Shown here piece by piece: positions 4,250-12,726 of a DNA stretch of 32,936 bases (its first letter is position 1; every line of letters begins with the position of its first letter). The translations under genes and the position numbers were made by a program. Location of the stretch: the NCBI GenBank assembly GCA_025935815.1, contig JAICUO010000008.1, forward strand, positions 1-32,936. Direction: 5' to 3'. Under the pieces are notes generated by a model. It was not told the DNA's origin. It saw nothing but the letters and a program-made list of their open reading frames with translations, and did no database searches. The DNA is from Streptosporangiaceae bacterium (GTDB lineage Bacteria; Actinomycetota; Actinomycetes; Streptosporangiales; Streptosporangiaceae).

Positions 4250-5013
4250 AGCGGGGTAACGTAAGCCCCGGCGATCCCGCCATCGACCAGGAAGGTGCTG
4301 GCGGTCATGAAGGAGGAGTCGTCGCTCGCGAGGAACGCCACCGCGGCGGCGATCTCGTCGGCCTCGGCGAACCGGCCCATCGGGATGTGCACGAGCCGGC
4401 GAGCGGCGCGCTCGGGGTCCTTGGCGAACAGCTCCTGCAGCAGCGGGGTGTTCACCGGCCCGGGGCACAGCGCGTTGACCCGGATCCCCTCGCGCGCGAA
4501 CTGCACGCCGAGCTCCCGCGACATCGCCAGCACCCCGCCCTTGGACGCGGTGTAGGAGATCTGCGAGGTCGCGGCGCCCATCGTCGCGACGAAGGACGCG
4601 GTGTTGATGATGGAGCCCTTGCCGCGCGCCCGCATGTGCCCGATCGCGTACTTGCAGCACAGGTAGACGCTGGTCAGGTTGACCTCCTGCACGCGCTTCC
4701 AGGCGTCCAGCCCGGTCACCAGGATCGAGTCGTCTTCCGGCGGGGAGATCCCGGCGTTGTTGAAGGCGATGTCCAGGCGGCCGTACGTGGCCACCGTGGT
4801 GGCGAACATCGCCTCCACCGCGCGCTCGTCGGTCACGTCGGCCTGCACGAACAGCCCGCCGACCTCGGCGGCGGCCTTCTCACCGGACGCGGGGTCCACG
4901 TCGGCGCAGACCACGCGGGCGCCCTCGGCGGCCAGCCGGCGGGCACTGGCCAGCCCGATCCCACTGCCGGCTCCGGTGATGTCGGCGACCCGGCCGTCCA
5001 GGCGATTGCTCAT
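4246..5013 (-). CDS. Short-chain dehydrogenase/reductase, probable NAD-dependent
   Basis: This is a classical 255-residue SDR. The Rossmann motif TGAGSGIG is at about residues 14-21. An acidic residue after beta-2 (VVCADVDP) favours NAD(H) over NADP(H). NNAG and the catalytic Ser140, Tyr154 and Lys158 (SYTASK) are all present. It ends the minus-strand amine-catabolism operon, and its ATG overlaps the aldehyde dehydrogenase stop (ATGA, 5010-5013). Family members act as alcohol dehydrogenases or oxoacyl reductases. Because the operon has a gamma-glutamyl ligase, aldehyde dehydrogenase and hydrolase but no amine oxidase, this enzyme is a good candidate for oxidising a gamma-glutamylated amino alcohol to the aldehyde (inference). 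Confidence 0.92.
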   Translation of the reverse strand: MSNRLDGRVADITGAGSGIGLASARRLAAEGARVVCADVDPASGEKAAAEVGGLFVQADVTDERAVEAMFATTVATYGRLDIAFNNAGISPPEDDSILVTGLDAWKRVQEVNLTSVYLCCKYAIGHMRARGKGSIINTASFVATMGAATSQISYTASKGGVLAMSRELGVQFAREGIRVNALCPGPVNTPLLQELFAKDPERAARRLVHIPMGRFAEADEIAAAVAFLASDDSSFMTASTFLVDGGIAGAYVTPL

Positions 5014-6398
5014 GAGTTGTTCCCCGAAGTAGAGATGAACACGTTCTTGGTCTCGGTGAAGGCGTCGAGCGCGTCCGGGCCGAGCTCGCGGCCGAGGCCG
5101 GATTGCTTGAACCCGCCGAACGGCGTTGAGTACCGCACCGAGGAGTGGGAGTTGACCGAGAGGTTGCCGGCCTGGACGCCGCGCGCGACCCGCAGGCCCC
5201 GGCCGAGGTCGCGGGTCCAGATCGACCCCGACAGGCCGTACTCGGTGTCGTTGGCGATCCGCACCGCCTCGTCCTCGTCGCGGAAGGGCACGACGGTCAG
5301 CACCGGGCCGAAGATCTCCTCCCGGAAGGCGGCCGAGTCGCGGCCGACGGGGGCCAGGACCGTGGGCGGGAACCAGAACCCGGAGCCGGACGGCGCCGTG
5401 CCGCGGAACGCGACCGGCGCGTCGTCGGGCACGTACCGGGCGACGCTGGCCCGCTGCTCGGCTGAGATCAGCGGTCCCATCTCCGCGGACTCATCGAGCA
5501 GGTCACCGACCCGGACCCCGCGCACCGCGGGTTCCAGGAGCGCCATGAACTCATCGAACGCGGACTGCTCGACCAGGATCCGGGACCGGGCGCAGCAGTC
5601 CTGCCCGGCGTTGTCGAACGCCGCGTAGGGGGCGCTGGCGGCGGCGGCGGCCAGGTCGCAGTCGGCGAACACGATGTTGGCGCTCTTGCCGCCGAGCTCC
5701 AGCGTCACCCGCTTCACCTGGGCGGCGCAGCCGGCCATGATCTGCTGGCCGACGACGGTGGCCCCGGTGAAGGCGATCTTGCGGACCGCCGGGTGCTCGA
5801 TGAAACGCCGGCCGACGACGGCGCCCCGCCCGGGGATGACCTGGAAGACGCCGTCCGGGATCCCCGCCTGGGCGGCGAGCTCGCCCAGGCGGATGGCGGT
5901 GAGCGGCGTGAGCTCGGCGGGCTTGAGCACCACCGTGTTCCCGGCGGCGAGTGCGGGGGCCAGCGACCAGCCGGCGATCGGCATCGGGAAGTTCCACGGC
6001 ACGATCACCCCGACCACGCCGAGCGGCTCCTTGAAGGTGACGTCGATCCCGCCCGCGACCGGAATCTGGCGGCCGAAGTTCCGCTCGGGCGCGGCACTGT
6101 AGTACTCGAGCACGTCACGGACGTTGCCCGCCTCCCAGCGGGCGTTGCTGATCGTGTGCCCGGCGTTGGCGACCTCGGTCGCCGCCAGGTTCTCGCGGTC
6201 GGCGTCAACGGCGGCGGCGAACGCCCGCAGCAGCCGCGCGCGGTCGGCTGGCGCCACCGCGCGCCAGCCATCATAGGCCCGCGCGGCCCGCTCGATCGCG
6301 GCGTCGGCCTCGGCGGTTCCGGCGTATTCGACCTTGGCGACTACCTCCTCGGTGGCCGGGTTGACCACCGAGTGCGGGTACGGTTGGGCGCTGGTCAT
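5010..6398 (-). CDS. Aldehyde dehydrogenase (PuuC-like)
   Basis: This 462-residue NAD(P)-dependent aldehyde dehydrogenase carries the catalytic Glu234 in LELGGK and the nucleophile Cys268 in NAGQDC, 34 residues apart as in the family, plus PWNFPMPI and the C-terminal PFGGFKQSGLGRE cofactor and tail motifs. In the operon it would oxidise the gamma-glutamyl aldehyde to the acid. The start is the ATG at 6398, with AAAGGAG eight bases upstream and a 4-base overlap (ATGA) with the hydrolase stop. A frame extending to 6560 runs inside the hydrolase gene and is rejected. Cys269 follows the catalytic Cys, a common variation. Exact substrate is unknown: gamma-glutamyl-aminobutyraldehyde if the amine is putrescine, a shorter aldehyde if it is an amino alcohol. 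Confidence 0.94.
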   Translation of the reverse strand: MTSAQPYPHSVVNPATEEVVAKVEYAGTAEADAAIERAARAYDGWRAVAPADRARLLRAFAAAVDADRENLAATEVANAGHTISNARWEAGNVRDVLEYYSAAPERNFGRQIPVAGGIDVTFKEPLGVVGVIVPWNFPMPIAGWSLAPALAAGNTVVLKPAELTPLTAIRLGELAAQAGIPDGVFQVIPGRGAVVGRRFIEHPAVRKIAFTGATVVGQQIMAGCAAQVKRVTLELGGKSANIVFADCDLAAAAASAPYAAFDNAGQDCCARSRILVEQSAFDEFMALLEPAVRGVRVGDLLDESAEMGPLISAEQRASVARYVPDDAPVAFRGTAPSGSGFWFPPTVLAPVGRDSAAFREEIFGPVLTVVPFRDEDEAVRIANDTEYGLSGSIWTRDLGRGLRVARGVQAGNLSVNSHSSVRYSTPFGGFKQSGLGRELGPDALDAFTETKNVFISTSGNNS

Positions 6399-7159
6399 GC
6401 GGCGCTCCTTTCGCGCGGGGTCGCGCGGGCGGCCGCCACGAGCGCCTCGAACAGGCGCCCGCTGGCGGGACTGGACGGATCGGCCTCCGGGTGCCACTGG
6501 ACCCCGAAGGCGAAACGGTGACCCGTCAGCTCGATCGCCTCGAGCGTCTCGTCGCCGCACCAGGCCACCGGCAGCAGGTCGCGGCCGAGCTCGGCGACCG
6601 CCTGATGGTGGTAGCAGCGGACCGCCACGGTGGCAGCGCTCGCGTTAATGCCGAGGATCGCGGCCAGGCGGCTGTCGCCGCGGACCCGGACCTCGCGGCG
6701 GCCGAAGATCGCCGGGGCCGGCTGGTGCCCGGTTTCGCCGAGCGTGTCCGGCAGGTGCTGCGTCAGCGCGCCGCCCTGGGCGATGTTGAGCAGCTGCATC
6801 CCCCGGCAGATGCCGAGAACGGGGGTGTCGTGGGCCAGTGCCGCGGCCAGGAGTGCGAGCTCCCAGGAATCGCGCGAGTCGTTCGGAGTACCGGTGAGCG
6901 GATGGGGGTCGGCGCCGTAGCAGCCGGGATTGAGGTCGGGCCCGCCGGAGAGCACCAGGCCATCGAGGGCCTCGACGGCCTCGACGGCGCCGTCCTCCTG
7001 GGGCGGCAGCAGCACGGCGAGGCCGCCGGCCCGGGTCACCGCGGTGACGTACGCCTGCGGGATGAGCGCGGCGGGCTGATGCCACACGCCCCACGCCGCC
7101 TCGTCGAGGTAGCTGCTGATCCCGATCAGCGGACGACTGGTCGGCGGACGGCTGGTCAT
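6395..7159 (-). CDS. Gamma-glutamyl amide hydrolase (PuuD-like, peptidase C26)
   Basis: This 254-residue class-I glutamine-amidotransferase-like hydrolase has the nucleophile Cys118 in the elbow GICRGMQLLN, and His223 and Glu225 in VQWHPE, giving a complete triad. GLVLSGGPDLNP is the conserved oxyanion/glycine segment. PuuD-family enzymes split a gamma-glutamyl amide to glutamate plus the free amino acid, the last step of the gamma-glutamylated polyamine route. It overlaps the glutamine-synthetase-like gene upstream (ATGA, 7156-7159) and the aldehyde dehydrogenase downstream (ATGA, 6395-6398). Continuous coupling implies fixed stoichiometry in the cytoplasm. Function within the family is well supported; the precise amide is not. 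Confidence 0.93.
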   Translation of the reverse strand: MTSRPPTSRPLIGISSYLDEAAWGVWHQPAALIPQAYVTAVTRAGGLAVLLPPQEDGAVEAVEALDGLVLSGGPDLNPGCYGADPHPLTGTPNDSRDSWELALLAAALAHDTPVLGICRGMQLLNIAQGGALTQHLPDTLGETGHQPAPAIFGRREVRVRGDSRLAAILGINASAATVAVRCYHHQAVAELGRDLLPVAWCGDETLEAIELTGHRFAFGVQWHPEADPSSPASGRLFEALVAAARATPRERSAA

Positions 7160-8520
7160 AGCCTTTCGAACCCCCGGCGCAGCTCCCAGTTGGTCACCGT
7201 CGAGTCGTAGGCCGCCAGCTCGACCCGCCCCGCGTGGGCGTAGTGCTCGACGACGTCCCGGCCGAACGCGTGCTCGGCGGCCGCGCTGGCCGTGAACGCC
7301 TCGATCGCGTCGCGCAGCGTGGACGGCACCCGGGCGGCGGCGGAGGCGTAGGCGTTGCCGGTGAATTCCGGTTCGAGCGGCAGGTGGTTCTCCAGCCCGT
7401 GCAGCCCGGCCGCGATCAGGGCGGCCACGGCCAGGTAGGGGTTCACGTCGCCGCCGGGGACGCGGTTCTCAAATCGCAGGGACGGGCCGTGCCCGACCAC
7501 CCGCAGCGCGCACGTGCGGTTGTCGCGTCCCCAGGCGATGGCGGTGGGCGCGAAGCTCCCGGGGACGTAGCGCTTGTAGGAGTTGACGTTGGGGGCCAGC
7601 AGGAGCGCGAAGTCGGACAGGCAGGCGAGCTGCCCGGCCAGGAAGTGCTCCATGAGCGGCGAGAACCCGTGCGGCTGGTCGCCGGCCAGCACGGGCGTCC
7701 CGGCCGCGTCGCGCAGGCTCAGGTGGATGTGGCAGGAGTTGCCCTCGCGCTCGTTGTACTTGGCCATGAACGTCAGGCTCACGTTCTCCTGGGCGGCGAT
7801 CTCCTTCGCGCCGGTCTTGTAGACCGAGTGGTCGTCGCAGGTGTTCAGCGCCTTGCCGTACCGGAAGGCGATCTCGTGCTGGCCCGGGTTGCACTCGCCC
7901 TTCGCCGACTCGACGACCATTCCGGCGCCTGCCATCTCGTTGCGGATGCGGCGCAGCAGGGGCTCGATCCGTCCGGTGCCGAGGACCGAGTAGTCGACGT
8001 TGTACTGGTTGGCCGGGGTGAGGCCGCGGTAATCACAGTTCCAGGCCTGCTCGTAGGTGTCCTTGAAGACGATGAACTCCAGCTCGGTGCCGACGTAGGC
8101 GTCCCATCCGTAGGCCGCCAGCCGGTCCAGTTGCCGCCGCAGCACCTGCCGGGGGGAGACGGGAACGGGGGTGCCGTCGAGGAACGCGATGTCGGACTGG
8201 ACCATGACGGTGCCCGGGTGCCAGGGGATGTAGCGCAGCGTGTCCAGGTCGGGGGCGAAGACCAGGTCCCCGTAGCCGCGGTCCCAGGATGACAGGGCGT
8301 ACCCGTCGACGGTGTTCATGTCGACGTCGACCGCCAGCAGGTAGTCACACCCCTCGCCGCCGTGCGCGGCCACCTCGGCTAGGAAGAAGTCCCCGGCCAT
8401 CCGCTTGCCCTGCAGGCGGCCTTGCATGTCGGTCAGCGCCAGCACGACCGTGTCGATGGTCCCGTTGGCGACTAGCGGCCGCAGTTCCTCGAGCGTCAGA
8501 CGGCTACGGTATGGACCCAT
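7156..8520 (-). CDS. Glutamine-synthetase-family gamma-glutamyl-amine ligase (PuuA/GlnA3/GlnA4-like)
   Basis: This 454-residue member of the glutamine synthetase superfamily has the metal-binding TELEFIVF strand, the GECNPGQHEIAFRY segment, NEREGNSCHIHLSL with the ATP/metal His, and the C-terminal LRFENRVPGGDVNPYLAVAA. Its linkage to a gamma-glutamyl hydrolase, aldehyde dehydrogenase and FCD regulator says it ligates glutamate to an amine rather than to ammonia. Known relatives use putrescine or polyamines (PuuA, GlnA3) or ethanolamine (GlnA4 of Streptomyces). The start chosen is the ATG at 8520, with AGGAGG five to six bases upstream; a GTG at 8526 lies inside that ribosome site. A candidate promoter and a 15-bp palindrome precede the gene at 8571-8612. 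Confidence 0.92.
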   Translation of the reverse strand: MGPYRSRLTLEELRPLVANGTIDTVVLALTDMQGRLQGKRMAGDFFLAEVAAHGGEGCDYLLAVDVDMNTVDGYALSSWDRGYGDLVFAPDLDTLRYIPWHPGTVMVQSDIAFLDGTPVPVSPRQVLRRQLDRLAAYGWDAYVGTELEFIVFKDTYEQAWNCDYRGLTPANQYNVDYSVLGTGRIEPLLRRIRNEMAGAGMVVESAKGECNPGQHEIAFRYGKALNTCDDHSVYKTGAKEIAAQENVSLTFMAKYNEREGNSCHIHLSLRDAAGTPVLAGDQPHGFSPLMEHFLAGQLACLSDFALLLAPNVNSYKRYVPGSFAPTAIAWGRDNRTCALRVVGHGPSLRFENRVPGGDVNPYLAVAALIAAGLHGLENHLPLEPEFTGNAYASAAARVPSTLRDAIEAFTASAAAEHAFGRDVVEHYAHAGRVELAAYDSTVTNWELRRGFERL

Positions 8521-8570
8521 CAGCACCTCCTGAAGACGGCACCTTCTAATGGCCTGAAATCAATCCATTG

Positions 8571-8585
8571 ACTTGCGTGGCAAGT
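8571..8585. promoter_or_regulatory. 15-bp palindromic operator candidate upstream of the amine operon
   Basis: The site reads ACTTGCGTGGCAAGT, perfect 6-bp arms around a 3-bp centre. It lies between the GntR gene and the ligase gene, at or just after the candidate -10 region of the ligase promoter. GntR/FCD regulators bind short palindromes of this size, usually repressing until their ligand appears. Assignment to this particular regulator is inference. Confidence 0.5.
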
Positions 8586-8612
8586 GTCTGCCGTGGCGGG
8601 GACCGGTGTCAA
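8583..8612 (-). promoter_or_regulatory. Candidate sigma-70-type promoter for the amine operon
   Basis: A perfect -35 hexamer TTGACA lies at 8607-8612 (minus strand). The -10 match is weak: AGACAC or GACACT at 17-18 bp spacing. It would start transcription across the palindrome at 8571-8585, so repressor binding there would block it. It lies just past the GntR stop and would let the four enzyme genes be controlled separately from the regulator. Confidence 0.4.
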
Positions 8613-8621
8613 GGCCTCGCC

Positions 8622-9374
8622 TCAGCCGAGAAAACCCCGGATCAGGGCGGCGGTCGCGTCGACGTGCTCGGCGGTCACCTGCCGGGCGGCCGCCGCGTCC
8701 CCGGCCAGGATCGCCTGCGCGATCGCCTGGTGCTGGGTCGAGGCGTGCTCGATGTTGCGGGCCAGCATCGGGATCGCGTTGAGCAGGTCGTTCAGGCGCA
8801 TGCGGCACTCGGCGATGCTCGCGGTGAGGGACGGGGACTCGGTCAGCTCGGCGATCGCCAGGTGGAACCGGGAGTCGGCCAGCCGGTACTCGGCCGGCGG
8901 CGCGCCCGCCACTTCCCTCAGCCGCCGGGTGAGGTAGTCGCGCCGCCGATCGCTGAGACCGGTAAGGGCCGCGCGCTCCGCCGCGCCCGCCTCCAGGACA
9001 TGGCGGTAGGTGATGGCGTCGTCGAGGCGATCACTGATGCCCGCGGCCGCTCGCCGCAGGTCATCCGGGTCTGGCTCGGGTATCTGGTAGGCCACGAAGG
9101 TGCCGCCGTACCGCCCGTGCCGGGACGTAACGTAACCGGCTTCCTGCAGCGACCGGATGGCATCGCGCACCGTGGCCCGGCTGACGTTCAGCCGGACCGC
9201 CAGGTCGCGCTCGACCGGCAGCCGCGAGCCGTGCGGGAACACCCCGAGCTTGACCGCCTGCAAGATCCGCTCGACCGCCTCCTCGAAGGCGTTGCCGGTG
9301 CGGACCGGGCGGAAGATCGCGATTCCGGCCCAGTCCGGCGCGGCGTCGGGTCGTGCGTCGGTCACGAGGCTCAC
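8622..9374 (-). CDS. GntR-family regulator with FCD (FadR-type) ligand domain
   Basis: The N-terminal winged helix-turn-helix is clear: ERILQAVKLGVFPHGSRLPVERDLA, then LNVSRATVRDAIRSLQEAGYV and a wing RHGRYGGTFV. An all-helical FCD domain follows, with candidate metal ligands in DSRFHLAIAE and the late HxxxxxH and EHVDA positions. FCD proteins sense small carboxylic or amino compounds. Placed at the head of the amine operon, it is the likely specific regulator, responding to a gamma-glutamyl intermediate or the amine. The start is uncertain: no strong ribosome site is seen, the GTG at 9374 gives 250 residues, another GTG lies at 9365, and a TTG at 9410 would add 12 residues. Confidence 0.88.
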   Translation of the reverse strand: MSLVTDARPDAAPDWAGIAIFRPVRTGNAFEEAVERILQAVKLGVFPHGSRLPVERDLAVRLNVSRATVRDAIRSLQEAGYVTSRHGRYGGTFVAYQIPEPDPDDLRRAAAGISDRLDDAITYRHVLEAGAAERAALTGLSDRRRDYLTRRLREVAGAPPAEYRLADSRFHLAIAELTESPSLTASIAECRMRLNDLLNAIPMLARNIEHASTQHQAIAQAILAGDAAAARQVTAEHVDATAALIRGFLG

Positions 9375-9470
9375 GGTACCCGCTGGGCCGATCAGGGTGA
9401 CACCCGGCAAAATGCAGCGGGCGCTGTCCCCGGGATAGGGGTCATGACAATGCCTTGAAGCGCGGATAGG

Positions 9471-10184
9471 TTATTGACGCAAGAAGGGCCGGGGACGGGC
9501 ATGTCCTTGCTCCTTATCCGCTGGGGGGGCGCGGACTAAGGATGTCGGCGGGACATGCCCATCCTCGACCGCTCGATAATACAGCTCCAGCTTCGTTGGC
9601 GCCGCGCGTCCGGCCCGCGCGTATTTCTCGCGGACGCGCCCCATGTATTGCTTGGCCGTCTCCTCGCTGATGCCCATCTTCCTGGCCACGGATTTCATCG
9701 GCATCCCGGTGGCGTAGAGCTGAAGCGCGCGCCTTTCCTGCGTGCTGAGGGCAGGCCGGTCCGCGGCGTCATCGGTCGCGAAGATGTAGGCGAGGCGGGG
9801 AGATATCCAGTCCCGGCCCGCCGCGACTTCCCTTATCGCCGCCCGGATCTGATCGGCCTGCTCGCTCTTCAGCGCGTACCCGAGGGCTCCGGCCCGGATT
9901 GCCGACCGGACGGCGACCGGCCGGTCGGAGGCCGACAAGACCAAGACGGCGGGGCCCGCCGCCAAGACGGCGGCCACGTTGGCATCCACCGTGGTCTCGT
10001 CGCCGAGGTCCAGGTCGAGCAGGACGACGTCCGCGTGGCGTCCGGGCCCGGCGAGCAGGACATCGACGGTCGGCGCGGTGGCGACTACCCGGATGTCGCC
10101 CTCCCCGGCCATGACCCAGTTCGCGACGCTGTCGAGGACAATCGGGTGGTCATCCACGGCGGCGACGTCAATGACGGGAGTCAC
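9471..10184 (-). CDS. LuxR/NarL-family response regulator
   Basis: This 237-residue regulator begins VTPVIDVAAVDDHP, with receiver acids Asp11-Asp12 and phosphoacceptor Asp57 in VVLLDLDLGD. It keeps the Ser switch (VLVLSAS) and Lys of GYALKSE. The C-terminal LuxR helix-turn-helix reads LSTQERRALQLYATGMPMKSVARKMGISEETAKQYMGRV in two blocks. The GTG start overlaps the stop of the degenerate kinase (GTGA, 10181-10184). A longer open frame to 10946 is the antisense-frame shadow of that kinase gene. It is the output protein of a three-gene signalling operon. No target site is evident. The tail after the HTH is 35-40 residues long, basic and probably disordered. Confidence 0.92.
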   Translation of the reverse strand: MTPVIDVAAVDDHPIVLDSVANWVMAGEGDIRVVATAPTVDVLLAGPGRHADVVLLDLDLGDETTVDANVAAVLAAGPAVLVLSASDRPVAVRSAIRAGALGYALKSEQADQIRAAIREVAAGRDWISPRLAYIFATDDAADRPALSTQERRALQLYATGMPMKSVARKMGISEETAKQYMGRVREKYARAGRAAPTKLELYYRAVEDGHVPPTSLVRAPPADKEQGHARPRPFLRQ

Positions 10185-11320
10185 CGGCCACCGCCGGAGT
10201 GCCAGGCGACCTCCAGGCACCCCCCGCCGTTCTCGGCCGCGATCACCGCGGCGTGCCAGCCGGCCGCGGCGGGCAGGCCCGCCCCGAACCTCGCCAGGCC
10301 GGGCATGCTCGGCGGCAACGCGTCGAAGGTCAGGTAGGCCTCGGCGCCATCGCCGGAGCCGATGAGCGTGAGCACGACGGGATGCGGCGCCAAGGCGCCG
10401 AGCATGGCGTCGAGGGTCGCCAGGATGGCGCGGGCGACCGCGGGCGGCGGAGTTCGCACCTCGCCGATCGCCTGGATGGTCACCAGCAGCCCTCGCGCGC
10501 GCGCGGCACTCAGCGACGGCGCCAGCGCGGCCACCAGAACGTCGTCGGCCGGCCCGCCGTCCGTCAGCGAGTGCCGCAGGGCCGCCGCATGCCGGGCGCA
10601 CTGCTGGGTGACGCTTTCCGCGGCGGGGTCCAGCGTCCCGTCGGCGATAGCGCGCAGCAGCGGGAGCGCCTCCCGCTCGAGCGCGCGCAGCCGCACCTGG
10701 CGCTCTTGCTGGATCGCGGCGACCGCGGCGCGCTCGGCCGCCGCGCTGCTCGCCCGCGACGCCCGGCGCGCGGACACGGTGACGTGCGCGGCCAGGGTGG
10801 ACCGGATCGCGGCGAACGTGACCAAGATGGTCGCCAGGATGTAGCCGGCCGCCTCCAGCTGGGACAGGCTGAGGGAATTCACGCCATCGTCGGCGACGAG
10901 CAGCCCGCCGTGCACGGCGTAGACGAGCAGCGCGCCCGGGATCCACACCCGGGCAGGCCGGCTCGAGGCGACCAAGGCGAGCAGCCAGGCCGTCCCCAAG
11001 ATAGCCAAGTCAAAGCTCGCGGGGTCGTCATCCGGCCGGTGGGCGGCCCCGATCACCGCCACGGCCGCCACCGCGACGGTGATCGCGGCTATTGTCTCGC
11101 CGGTGCCGAGGGGGCCCGCGCGCAGCCGCGGCACGAGCCACGCGGCGGCCCCGAGGACCGCGAGCCAGACAGCGATCGCCACGCCCGGCTGCCGATAGTC
11201 ACGCGAGTTGACCAGCACCTGGATCACCGCCAGGGACGGGACGAGCACCGCCAGCGCCCCGACGACGCGCATCAGCCCGGTTTCCGCGGCATTGCGCGCG
11301 ACCGCGTGCGGGCTCACCAC
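10181..11320 (-). CDS. Membrane protein resembling a degenerate sensor histidine kinase
   Basis: This 379-residue protein has about six hydrophobic helices in residues 1-180, a basic coiled-coil region, then a soluble domain laid out like a HisKA_3/HATPase kinase. Where active relatives have an E-L-H-D box it reads LRALEREALPLLRAIADG, with no His, and no recognisable N-box, D-box or G-box follows. It is therefore probably catalytically dead. Its position between an intact kinase (7-base overlap) and the regulator (4-base overlap) suggests it works as a sensor subunit, heterodimer partner or phosphatase-like modulator (inference). The GTG at 11320 has GGAG eight bases upstream; a GTG at 11317 is possible. 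Confidence 0.8.
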   Translation of the reverse strand: MVSPHAVARNAAETGLMRVVGALAVLVPSLAVIQVLVNSRDYRQPGVAIAVWLAVLGAAAWLVPRLRAGPLGTGETIAAITVAVAAVAVIGAAHRPDDDPASFDLAILGTAWLLALVASSRPARVWIPGALLVYAVHGGLLVADDGVNSLSLSQLEAAGYILATILVTFAAIRSTLAAHVTVSARRASRASSAAAERAAVAAIQQERQVRLRALEREALPLLRAIADGTLDPAAESVTQQCARHAAALRHSLTDGGPADDVLVAALAPSLSAARARGLLVTIQAIGEVRTPPPAVARAILATLDAMLGALAPHPVVLTLIGSGDGAEAYLTFDALPPSMPGLARFGAGLPAAAGWHAAVIAAENGGGCLEVAWHSGGGR

Positions 11321-12585
11321 GGCAAGGACTCCGCGGCCAGCGCATGATCGTCTTGGGGGCCGGCGTCCGCGGCGCCCGGGTCCGGCCCGCTCCCGGCGGG
11401 CCAGGACAGGCGGACCACGGTGCCGTTCCCGGGCCGCGACCAGACCGACGCGCGCCCGCCGCAGTCAGCGACGCGCTCGGCGATGGACCGTCGCAGGCCC
11501 AGCCGGGCGTGATCGACACGGGCACGGTCAAAGCCGGCGCCCTCGTCGCGCACGGTCACCTCCACGCCCGGCGGGGCCTCGCCGTCCCCGTCCGGTGCCG
11601 TCAGGCGGACTCGCACCCAGGCCTCCCCGGTGCCGGCATGGGCCGCCACGTTGGACAGCGCCTCGCGGGCGGCGCTGGAGATCGCCAGGGCGACCCGGGC
11701 CGGGATCGCCGGCGCTTGCCCGTCATCGATGCCGGCGTGGACGCGCAGCCCCCGGGCGCGCATGTCGGCGACAGCGGCCCGCATGTCGGCGAGCAAGTCA
11801 CCAGAACGCCGTTTGACCCCGGTAGCCAGGTCATTGGGGCCGGCGAGCGCGTCCTCAATCAGGTCCACGTCCTGGCGGCACCTGTTCACCGCATTAGCCA
11901 GGTCAGCGCGGCTGGAACGAGCCACGGCGGTGAGCGTGTTGAGGACGGTGTCATGGAGCAGGCGCTCATGCTCGCGCCGCTCGATCGTCGCGCGCAAGAT
12001 CGCGTACTGCTCACTGGCGGCCCGGTCGGATTCGCGCAACTCGGCGTCCGCCGCGGCGGCGCGCCGGTAAAGCTGCCGGCGGCCGTAGGCGTGCGCGCCC
12101 CCGACGACCATGAGCACGATCGTCGCCGCGGTCAGCGTCCGCAGGCTGGTGACGGGATGCAGCATCGCGCCCGCCCAGTAGGCCGTCGCCGACATGAGCG
12201 CGAGCAGCCAGAACAAGATGCCAGGCGCGTACCACGCGGGGATCATCAGCTGGCCCGACATGCTGATGACCAGCCAGCTGAACGCCTCGTCACGCACGGC
12301 GGGCGGCACGCACCCCGACCCGCCGAGGGCCAGGGCCACGTAGACGGCGGAATCCAGGCACGCCAGCGCGGGGGAAGGCCATCCCCTGCGCAGGCGGAGC
12401 ATCGCCGCCGCCGCCCACGTCACGGCGAGCACGGGACCCGCCAGCCGCCATGAGCTGGCCGTGTAGAACGAGTGCCAGATGACGACCTGCACGATGGTGT
12501 ACGCGATTCCCGCCCCCCGCACCACCAAGGCGAGGTGCGCCACCACCGACCTCAGGGTTGTCACGGCAGGCCCGCTCGGCATCAT
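11314..12585 (-). CDS. Sensor histidine kinase (HisKA_3/HATPase_c)
   Basis: This 423-residue kinase has five or six N-terminal membrane helices (to about residue 175), a helical linker rich in Ala, Arg and Glu, and the H-box HERLLHDTVLNTL with His211. The HATPase part shows the N-box AAREALSNVAAHA, the D-box VRDEGAGF and the G-region LGLRRSIAERV. It is the catalytic kinase of the operon and should phosphorylate the LuxR regulator at 9471-10184, possibly together with the degenerate kinase between them. Two ATGs are adjacent (12585 and 12582), with GAGGG about nine bases upstream. Upstream in-frame codons to 12636 have no clear ribosome site. Confidence 0.9.
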   Translation of the reverse strand: MMPSGPAVTTLRSVVAHLALVVRGAGIAYTIVQVVIWHSFYTASSWRLAGPVLAVTWAAAAMLRLRRGWPSPALACLDSAVYVALALGGSGCVPPAVRDEAFSWLVISMSGQLMIPAWYAPGILFWLLALMSATAYWAGAMLHPVTSLRTLTAATIVLMVVGGAHAYGRRQLYRRAAAADAELRESDRAASEQYAILRATIERREHERLLHDTVLNTLTAVARSSRADLANAVNRCRQDVDLIEDALAGPNDLATGVKRRSGDLLADMRAAVADMRARGLRVHAGIDDGQAPAIPARVALAISSAAREALSNVAAHAGTGEAWVRVRLTAPDGDGEAPPGVEVTVRDEGAGFDRARVDHARLGLRRSIAERVADCGGRASVWSRPGNGTVVRLSWPAGSGPDPGAADAGPQDDHALAAESLPW

Positions 12586-12726
12586 GCCGCGGCCCTCGGT
12601 TGCCTGCCTCCAGCGAACGCAACCCCTCGGCCACATAAGCCTGATGATAAGCGGACAGGCCGGCGCAAGCGTCGACTATCAGCAACGTTCCGATTACGGG
12701 ACCCGCAGGGCGGCCGCCCGCCGCCG

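Follow-up and report, generated by a model that had tools for sequence, protein, structure and literature searches.

The window analyzed here is a stretch of 32,936 nucleotides from a Streptosporangiaceae bacterium, and its minus strand carries, between positions 9471 and 12585, three overlapping genes. These encode, in order, a membrane histidine kinase (HK1), a kinase-like membrane protein (MID) and a NarL-type response regulator (Table 1). The HK1 stop overlaps the MID GTG start by 7 bases, and the MID stop overlaps the GTG start of the regulator gene by 4 bases. The genome to which the window belongs has a single MID copy.

An intact kinase, a kinase-like partner and a regulator

HK1 features an H-box, RREHERLLHDTVLN, that contains H211, together with an N-box and a G1 box, and its HATPase_c domain scores 36.4 bits against a Pfam cut-off of 26.4. 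Pfam HisKA_3 was absent among its matches with E-values up to 1. A comparison of the HK1 profile with the PDB matched VraS, DosT, DosS and DesK, including DesK chains that span the dimerization and histidine phosphotransfer (DHp) and ATPase (CA) domains, and HK1 is therefore predicted to be an intact histidine kinase of the DesK/VraS type. Assignment to the MacS kinase family (NF047322) was rejected, as HK1 scored 66.6 bits against a curated cut-off of 300. An in-frame ATG at 12636 represents a possible upstream alternative start for HK1.

The MID protein of the window had no matches to any Pfam or NCBIfam family, and a wider set of 37 MIDs yielded no Pfam matches and one weak NCBIfam match to an unrelated model. 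A profile comparison between 20 MIDs and 19 HK1s nevertheless aligned 235 columns (E = 1.9e-17, probability 98.9), placing E215 of MID opposite the HK1 histidine and A309 opposite the N-box asparagine. An AlphaFold2 model of MID built with 37 sequences (predicted local distance difference test score (pLDDT) 84.8, predicted template modeling score (pTM) 0.56) features long N-terminal helices, a long helix from residue 149 to 226, a second DHp helix (235–253) and an alpha/beta domain; the low pTM makes the arrangement of these domains uncertain. Fold comparisons with Foldseek and VIA-align matched this model to DesK (7ssj, Z 12.0, 2.6 Å over 113 residues; 3gie, Z 12.4) and DosS (3zxo, Z 11.9, 2.7 Å over 114 residues). 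The root-mean-square deviation of 12.9 Å over 152 residues from 3gie indicates that the two domains of MID are arranged otherwise than in DesK, while the CA domain superimposed on those of DesK, DosS and AgrC at 2.4–2.8 Å over 111–120 residues. The ATP-binding motifs of MID are gone and, according to the model, the fold of the ATPase domain is kept. Sequence profiles and model together point to MID being a pseudo-histidine-kinase with a DesK-like DHp-CA body and common ancestry with HK1. The cysteine at position 241 in the second DHp helix (10598–10600) is found in 99 of 130 MIDs.

The third protein exceeds both the Response_reg and GerE cut-offs and is predicted to be a response regulator of the NarL type. 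Its end (9471–9551) and that of its nearest relative extend approximately 20 or more residues beyond the ends of several close relatives. The original prediction, made from the sequence of this locus, had described a translationally coupled operon with an active-type first kinase and a middle protein devoid of both the H-box histidine and the ATP-binding boxes. All of this is borne out, with the refinement that MID keeps the ATPase-domain fold.

Table 1. Positions of the three genes and their main features in the window (aa, amino acids)
Feature	Position	Strand	Basis or remarks
HK1, active membrane histidine kinase (predicted), 423 aa	11314..12585	-	HATPase_c match; profile matches to VraS, DosT, DosS, DesK
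HK1 His211, putative phosphorylated histidine	11953..11955	-	H-box ERLLHDTVLN; His in 130/130 distinct HK1s
HK1 Asn312, N-box (REALSN)	11650..11652	-	Asn in 130/130
HK1 G1 box DEGAG, D347-G351	11533..11547	-	D, G, G in 130/130
MID, predicted pseudo-histidine-kinase, 379 aa, GTG start	10181..11320	-	HK1/MID profile alignment, AlphaFold model, fold matches
MID putative membrane part, helices within residues 4-145	10886..11311	-	AlphaFold model; membrane insertion inferred from sequence
MID DHp-like region, residues 205-256	10553..10708	-	Profile alignment, model; conserved P232, C241, R249
MID E215 at the histidine position	10676-10678	-	HK1/MID profile alignment
MID degenerate ATPase-like (CA) domain, residues 257-379, lacking N-box and G1 box	10184..10552	-	Model, fold matches
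Predicted NarL-type response regulator, 237 aa, GTG start	9471..10184	-	Response_reg and GerE above cut-offs
Regulator GerE helix-turn-helix (DNA-binding), residues 145-187	9624..9752	-	Pfam match
Regulator D57, phospho-acceptor aspartate	10014-10016	-	In 123/123 regulators
Regulator K106	9867-9869	-	In 123/123 regulators

Recurrence of the trio and selection on its members

Related loci were collected by a scan with the regulator alignment, and the 80 named loci considered here are the best 80 of 257 relatives. They come from Streptosporangiaceae, Micromonospora, Asanoa, Actinokineospora, Pseudonocardia, Frankia, Agromyces, Streptomyces and others. HK1, MID and the regulator stand together at 64 of the 80 loci, 61 of them plain and three with an extra or split match, while four loci at contig ends feature MID and the regulator. 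Eight loci have the regulator alone; seven of these belong to Frankia or Parafrankia, and the eighth (L073) sits at a contig end. At another four, from Agromyces and Mycetocola, an open reading frame that begins over the HK1 stop lies between HK1 and the regulator; an alignment of these frames matched the MID profile (E = 4.5e-6, probability 86.6) and left the HK1 profile unmatched, and their sequences suggest a divergent MID in the same slot. The recurrence of the trio, which the original prediction had singled out for counting, is found at most named loci, with an exception in the unlinked regulator of most Frankia genomes checked. In Rugosimonospora africana (L087), the regulator gene is transcribed divergently from those of HK1 and MID, so gene order is not fixed everywhere.

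When the family was searched with the MID alignment at E 1e-5, at least 109 of its 341 genomes matched; scoring covered about five candidates per genome, which makes this a lower bound. Across the class, 50 of 394 genomes matched at E 1e-10, with about four candidates scored in each and several of the matches short or weak. A plasmid search with the MID of the window yielded no matches, and one with a Micromonospora MID yielded 18 records. The annotation of two linear Streptomyces plasmids names the three members of the trio as an ATP-binding protein, a hypothetical protein and a LuxR-type or response regulator; with the middle gene labeled as hypothetical, such trios are easily mistaken for an ordinary kinase and regulator separated by an unrelated gene. 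These sequence comparisons indicate that the trio is an old conserved unit, shared by many soil actinobacteria. When open reading frames of at least 150 amino acids around 24 chosen loci were compared, no widely recurring family was identified besides the trio. In the window itself, genes for an aldehyde dehydrogenase, a glutamine-synthetase-like protein and a GntR/FCD regulator lie close together at 5010–9410, resembling a cluster for the breakdown of amines or polyamines and without a link to the trio.

Residues were counted in 158 HK1/MID pairs (at least 280 residues in each protein), which were reduced to 130 distinct pairs by the removal of 28 copies or near-copies. The H-box histidine, the N-box asparagine and the aspartate and both glycines of the G1 box are invariant in the HK1s, whereas 124 of the 130 MIDs lack the histidine and none has the N-box asparagine. 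The residues that MIDs carry in place of the H-box histidine are S in 48, R in 35, E in 14, Q and G in 7 each, L in 4, A and D in 3 each, T in 2 and N in 1, and the other 6 have H. An earlier alignment of 117 MIDs featured this asparagine in one protein (L020) and DxGxG strings in seven; the string of L002, whose position was checked, is near the C-terminus and in the wrong place. The invariant catalytic residues of HK1 and their near-complete loss from MID indicate that selection maintains one live and one dead partner.

The two proteins also differ in where they are conserved. The best conserved part of MID is the DHp region, with a mean of 2.46 bits (14 of 50 columns above 3 bits) against 2.05 for the CA domain, whereas in HK1 it is the CA domain (2.33 bits, 42 of 134 columns) against 2.17 for DHp. 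Ratios of nonsynonymous to synonymous substitution rates (dN/dS), from four comparisons each, were 0.42–0.58 for MID, 0.38–0.53 for HK1 and 0.09–0.23 for the regulator. The loss of every catalytic motif is what a functionless, degenerating duplicate would display, but the MID frame is open and conserved over the class, is under purifying selection like that on HK1 and has repeatedly been fused to HK1 (see below), which makes this explanation highly improbable. Because the trio recurs widely and the dN/dS of MID resembles that of HK1, MID does not appear to be a chance or decaying copy.

Natural fusions of HK1 and MID

HK1 and MID are encoded in one open frame at L072, L009 and L044 (all on one contig), L011, L113 and L158, and in 26 of the 40 loci L166–L205, where L184 repeats L011 and some loci from separate scans are the same places. 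Fusions occur in Streptosporangiaceae, Nanopelagicales, Frankiaceae and one further family (f20), and the family that holds most fused loci (f19) is taken to be Frankiaceae because its genome G476 shares coordinates with the Parafrankia record G700. An apparent fusion of MID to the regulator (L157, genome G269) was not counted, as its C-terminal MID letters look frame-shifted and a frameshift or sequencing error is probable.

Among the distinct pairs, 21 of 130 are fused, and a tree of all 130, constructed by a quick method and featuring several long branches, requires at least four changes of fusion state. The clade of the window groups beside fused Frankia clades, with a support of 93 at the joining branch. 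All nine loci with both halves (L196–L204) that lie in five Frankia or Parafrankia genomes (G698–G702) are fused, and each of these genomes has two to four matches to the MID profile, including one match to an HK1 half in G700 and one contig-end fragment in G702.

The fusions can also be reconciled with MID being a second receptor or scaffold that acts via its membrane part and forms no DHp bundle in common with HK1, since they would allow two homodimers to lie side by side in a 2:2 complex. The complete helical N-terminal part of the MID model agrees with such a role. The DHp region, however, is the most conserved part of MID, and we regard a scaffold of this kind as unlikely.

A proposed asymmetric sensor and its precedents

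The sequences and models give an intact HK1, a degenerate MID with a kinase fold, a gene order, its conservation and natural fusions of the two proteins; what is said below of physical contact, stoichiometry, sensing, phosphotransfer, direction of control, target genes and the signal is what we infer from them. On this basis, the trio is likely to be a three-component NarL-type system in which MID is a full-length pseudo-histidine-kinase that pairs with HK1 as its non-catalytic sensory or allosteric half, and MID very probably is a functional half of that sensor. HK1 would be the sole source of both the phosphorylatable histidine and the ATP site, and the two proteins would form one obligate heteromeric sensor, in its simplest form a 1:1 heterodimer held together by the DHp helices. 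MID would add its own membrane part, and its conformation would decide whether HK1 phosphorylates or dephosphorylates the regulator. Direct pairing is favored by the fusions and by the shift of MID conservation to the dimerizing region. Since MID lacks both the histidine and the ATP site, a 1:1 pair would imply that HK1 autophosphorylates in cis. The original prediction had placed the dead partner in a heteromeric complex as a sensor or brake, and the conserved trio, the consistent loss of MID catalysis and the repeated fusions support the complex by inference.

MID could instead be a brake, either through mixed dimers that are unable to trans-phosphorylate or by locking HK1 as a phosphatase until MID receives its signal, following the logic of RetS-GacS or LiaF. 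The absence of the histidine and ATP site from the MID of the window and nearly all of its relatives fits this, as a 1:1 pair would be silent if HK1 acted only in trans, and the ChrS pseudokinase can heterodimerize with a related kinase according to an excerpt of the published account (PMC9491836; the papers cited below are likewise drawn on in excerpt). The same account reports that this pseudokinase increased output rather than decreasing it (PMC9491836). Furthermore, the permanent 1:1 fusions would silence a trans-only kinase unless fused chains dimerized HK1 to HK1, and a brake therefore seems somewhat unlikely.

Several points weigh against an obligate HK1-MID heterodimer encoded as a unit. 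The five Frankia or Parafrankia genomes were searched for regulators of the trio family at E 1e-30: four have one each, located on a different contig from the fused genes or, in G698, at a distance of millions of bases. The fifth, G701, has three, one of which is directly upstream of a fused gene. With the regulator not beside the fused sensor in four of five genomes, the three genes do not form a unit in every genome. A fusion implies proximity and not pairing, and HK1:HK1 and MID:MID dimers could also form within fused chains. A model of the fused HK1-MID chain of L072 was poor (pLDDT 59.1, pTM 0.37, nine sequences), so the interface is not predicted; the alignment was kept to nine rows because MAFFT placed HK1 rows on the MID half in larger ones, while in small ones the identities of the rows showed them to be placed correctly. 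HK1 and MID distances are correlated at 0.97, a value that would also follow from the shared descent of linked genes. Finally, six MIDs (L088, L089, L090, L092, L104 and L121), all from Actinokineospora, do have a histidine at the H-box position.

In all six Actinokineospora proteins ELHR replaces LLHD and the N-box is absent. Relatives with an intact H-box, named in the original prediction as contrary cases, therefore exist only in a weak form, as an intact box is found in none of the 130 MIDs. The six form one clade nested among MIDs without the histidine in the tree of 130 pairs, which makes regain the simplest reading; their sequences suggest that the histidine was probably regained and is possibly a new phospho-acceptor.

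Four of the five Frankia or Parafrankia genomes combine several fused sensors with one unlinked regulator, which suggests that several single-chain sensors may converge on one regulator. These numbers neither demand nor exclude a further possibility, that the DHp-CA body of MID binds the phosphorylated regulator, reads its state as DivL reads DivK (PMC4211667) and feeds back on HK1. Conservation of the DHp region despite lost catalysis would agree with such a role, which we nonetheless consider quite improbable.

Several known systems resemble the HK1-MID-regulator trio in part. DesK-DesR, VraS and DosS/DosT are relatives of HK1 in sequence and fold, and of MID in fold; to our knowledge, they are single-kinase homodimers with no pseudokinase partner, and we know of no DivL, RetS or ChrS pseudokinase encoded within a translationally coupled trio. 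The regulators of the LiaFSR and AbrC systems are of the NarL type, and LiaF is an accessory protein that is not known to be kinase-like. The original prediction had called the arrangement little described in NarL-type systems, which is too broad given these two three-component examples and holds in so far as neither of them has a pseudokinase, the additional component being an accessory protein in one and a second active kinase in the other.

In LiaFSR, a kinase and a regulator are joined by an inhibiting third protein (PMC3543457, PMC7191749). The AbrC1/AbrC2/AbrC3 system is also actinobacterial and combines two membrane kinases and one regulator at one locus, but AbrC1 and AbrC2 of Streptomyces coelicolor both autophosphorylate on canonical histidines (H214 and H270) and are thus two active kinases (PMC4428217), whereas MID has no catalytic motifs. 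According to an excerpt of a review of S. coelicolor, there are 66 pairs alongside two triads; one of the triads consists of two kinases and one regulator, and AbrC is described in this way. Closest in logic, leaving homology aside, is FasBCA of Streptococcus, with two kinase-like membrane proteins and one regulator, for which FasC is proposed to be a pseudokinase and a FasB-FasC heterodimer is proposed (PMC12675982). FasC, however, retains H246, taken by its authors as phosphorylated, where the MID of the window has E215, and the Fas regulator is ComE-like rather than NarL-type (PMC12675982). DivL, RetS and the ChrS pseudokinase likewise control a related kinase without having kinase activity (PMC4211667, PMC9491836, PMC12675982), but they belong to kinase families other than that of HK1 and MID, and the excerpts of this literature report no natural protein that joins an active kinase to an inactive one. 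A literature search covering titles and the starts of abstracts, with preprints and most subscription journals outside its coverage, revealed no paper recognizable as describing the trio.

Histidine kinases are usually regarded as symmetric homodimers, and the HK1/MID proteins would provide dozens of natural, selection-maintained asymmetric pairs, some of them in a single chain. We tentatively suggest that they represent an unnamed and widespread actinobacterial class of obligately asymmetric kinase:pseudokinase dimers with one histidine and one ATP site acting in cis, which would have become a multicopy single chain with one unlinked regulator in Frankiaceae and regained a histidine in Actinokineospora. 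Catalysis has already been lost from one half of these sensors, which would make it possible to test asymmetry, cross-bundle allostery and whether autophosphorylation proceeds in cis or in trans without engineering.

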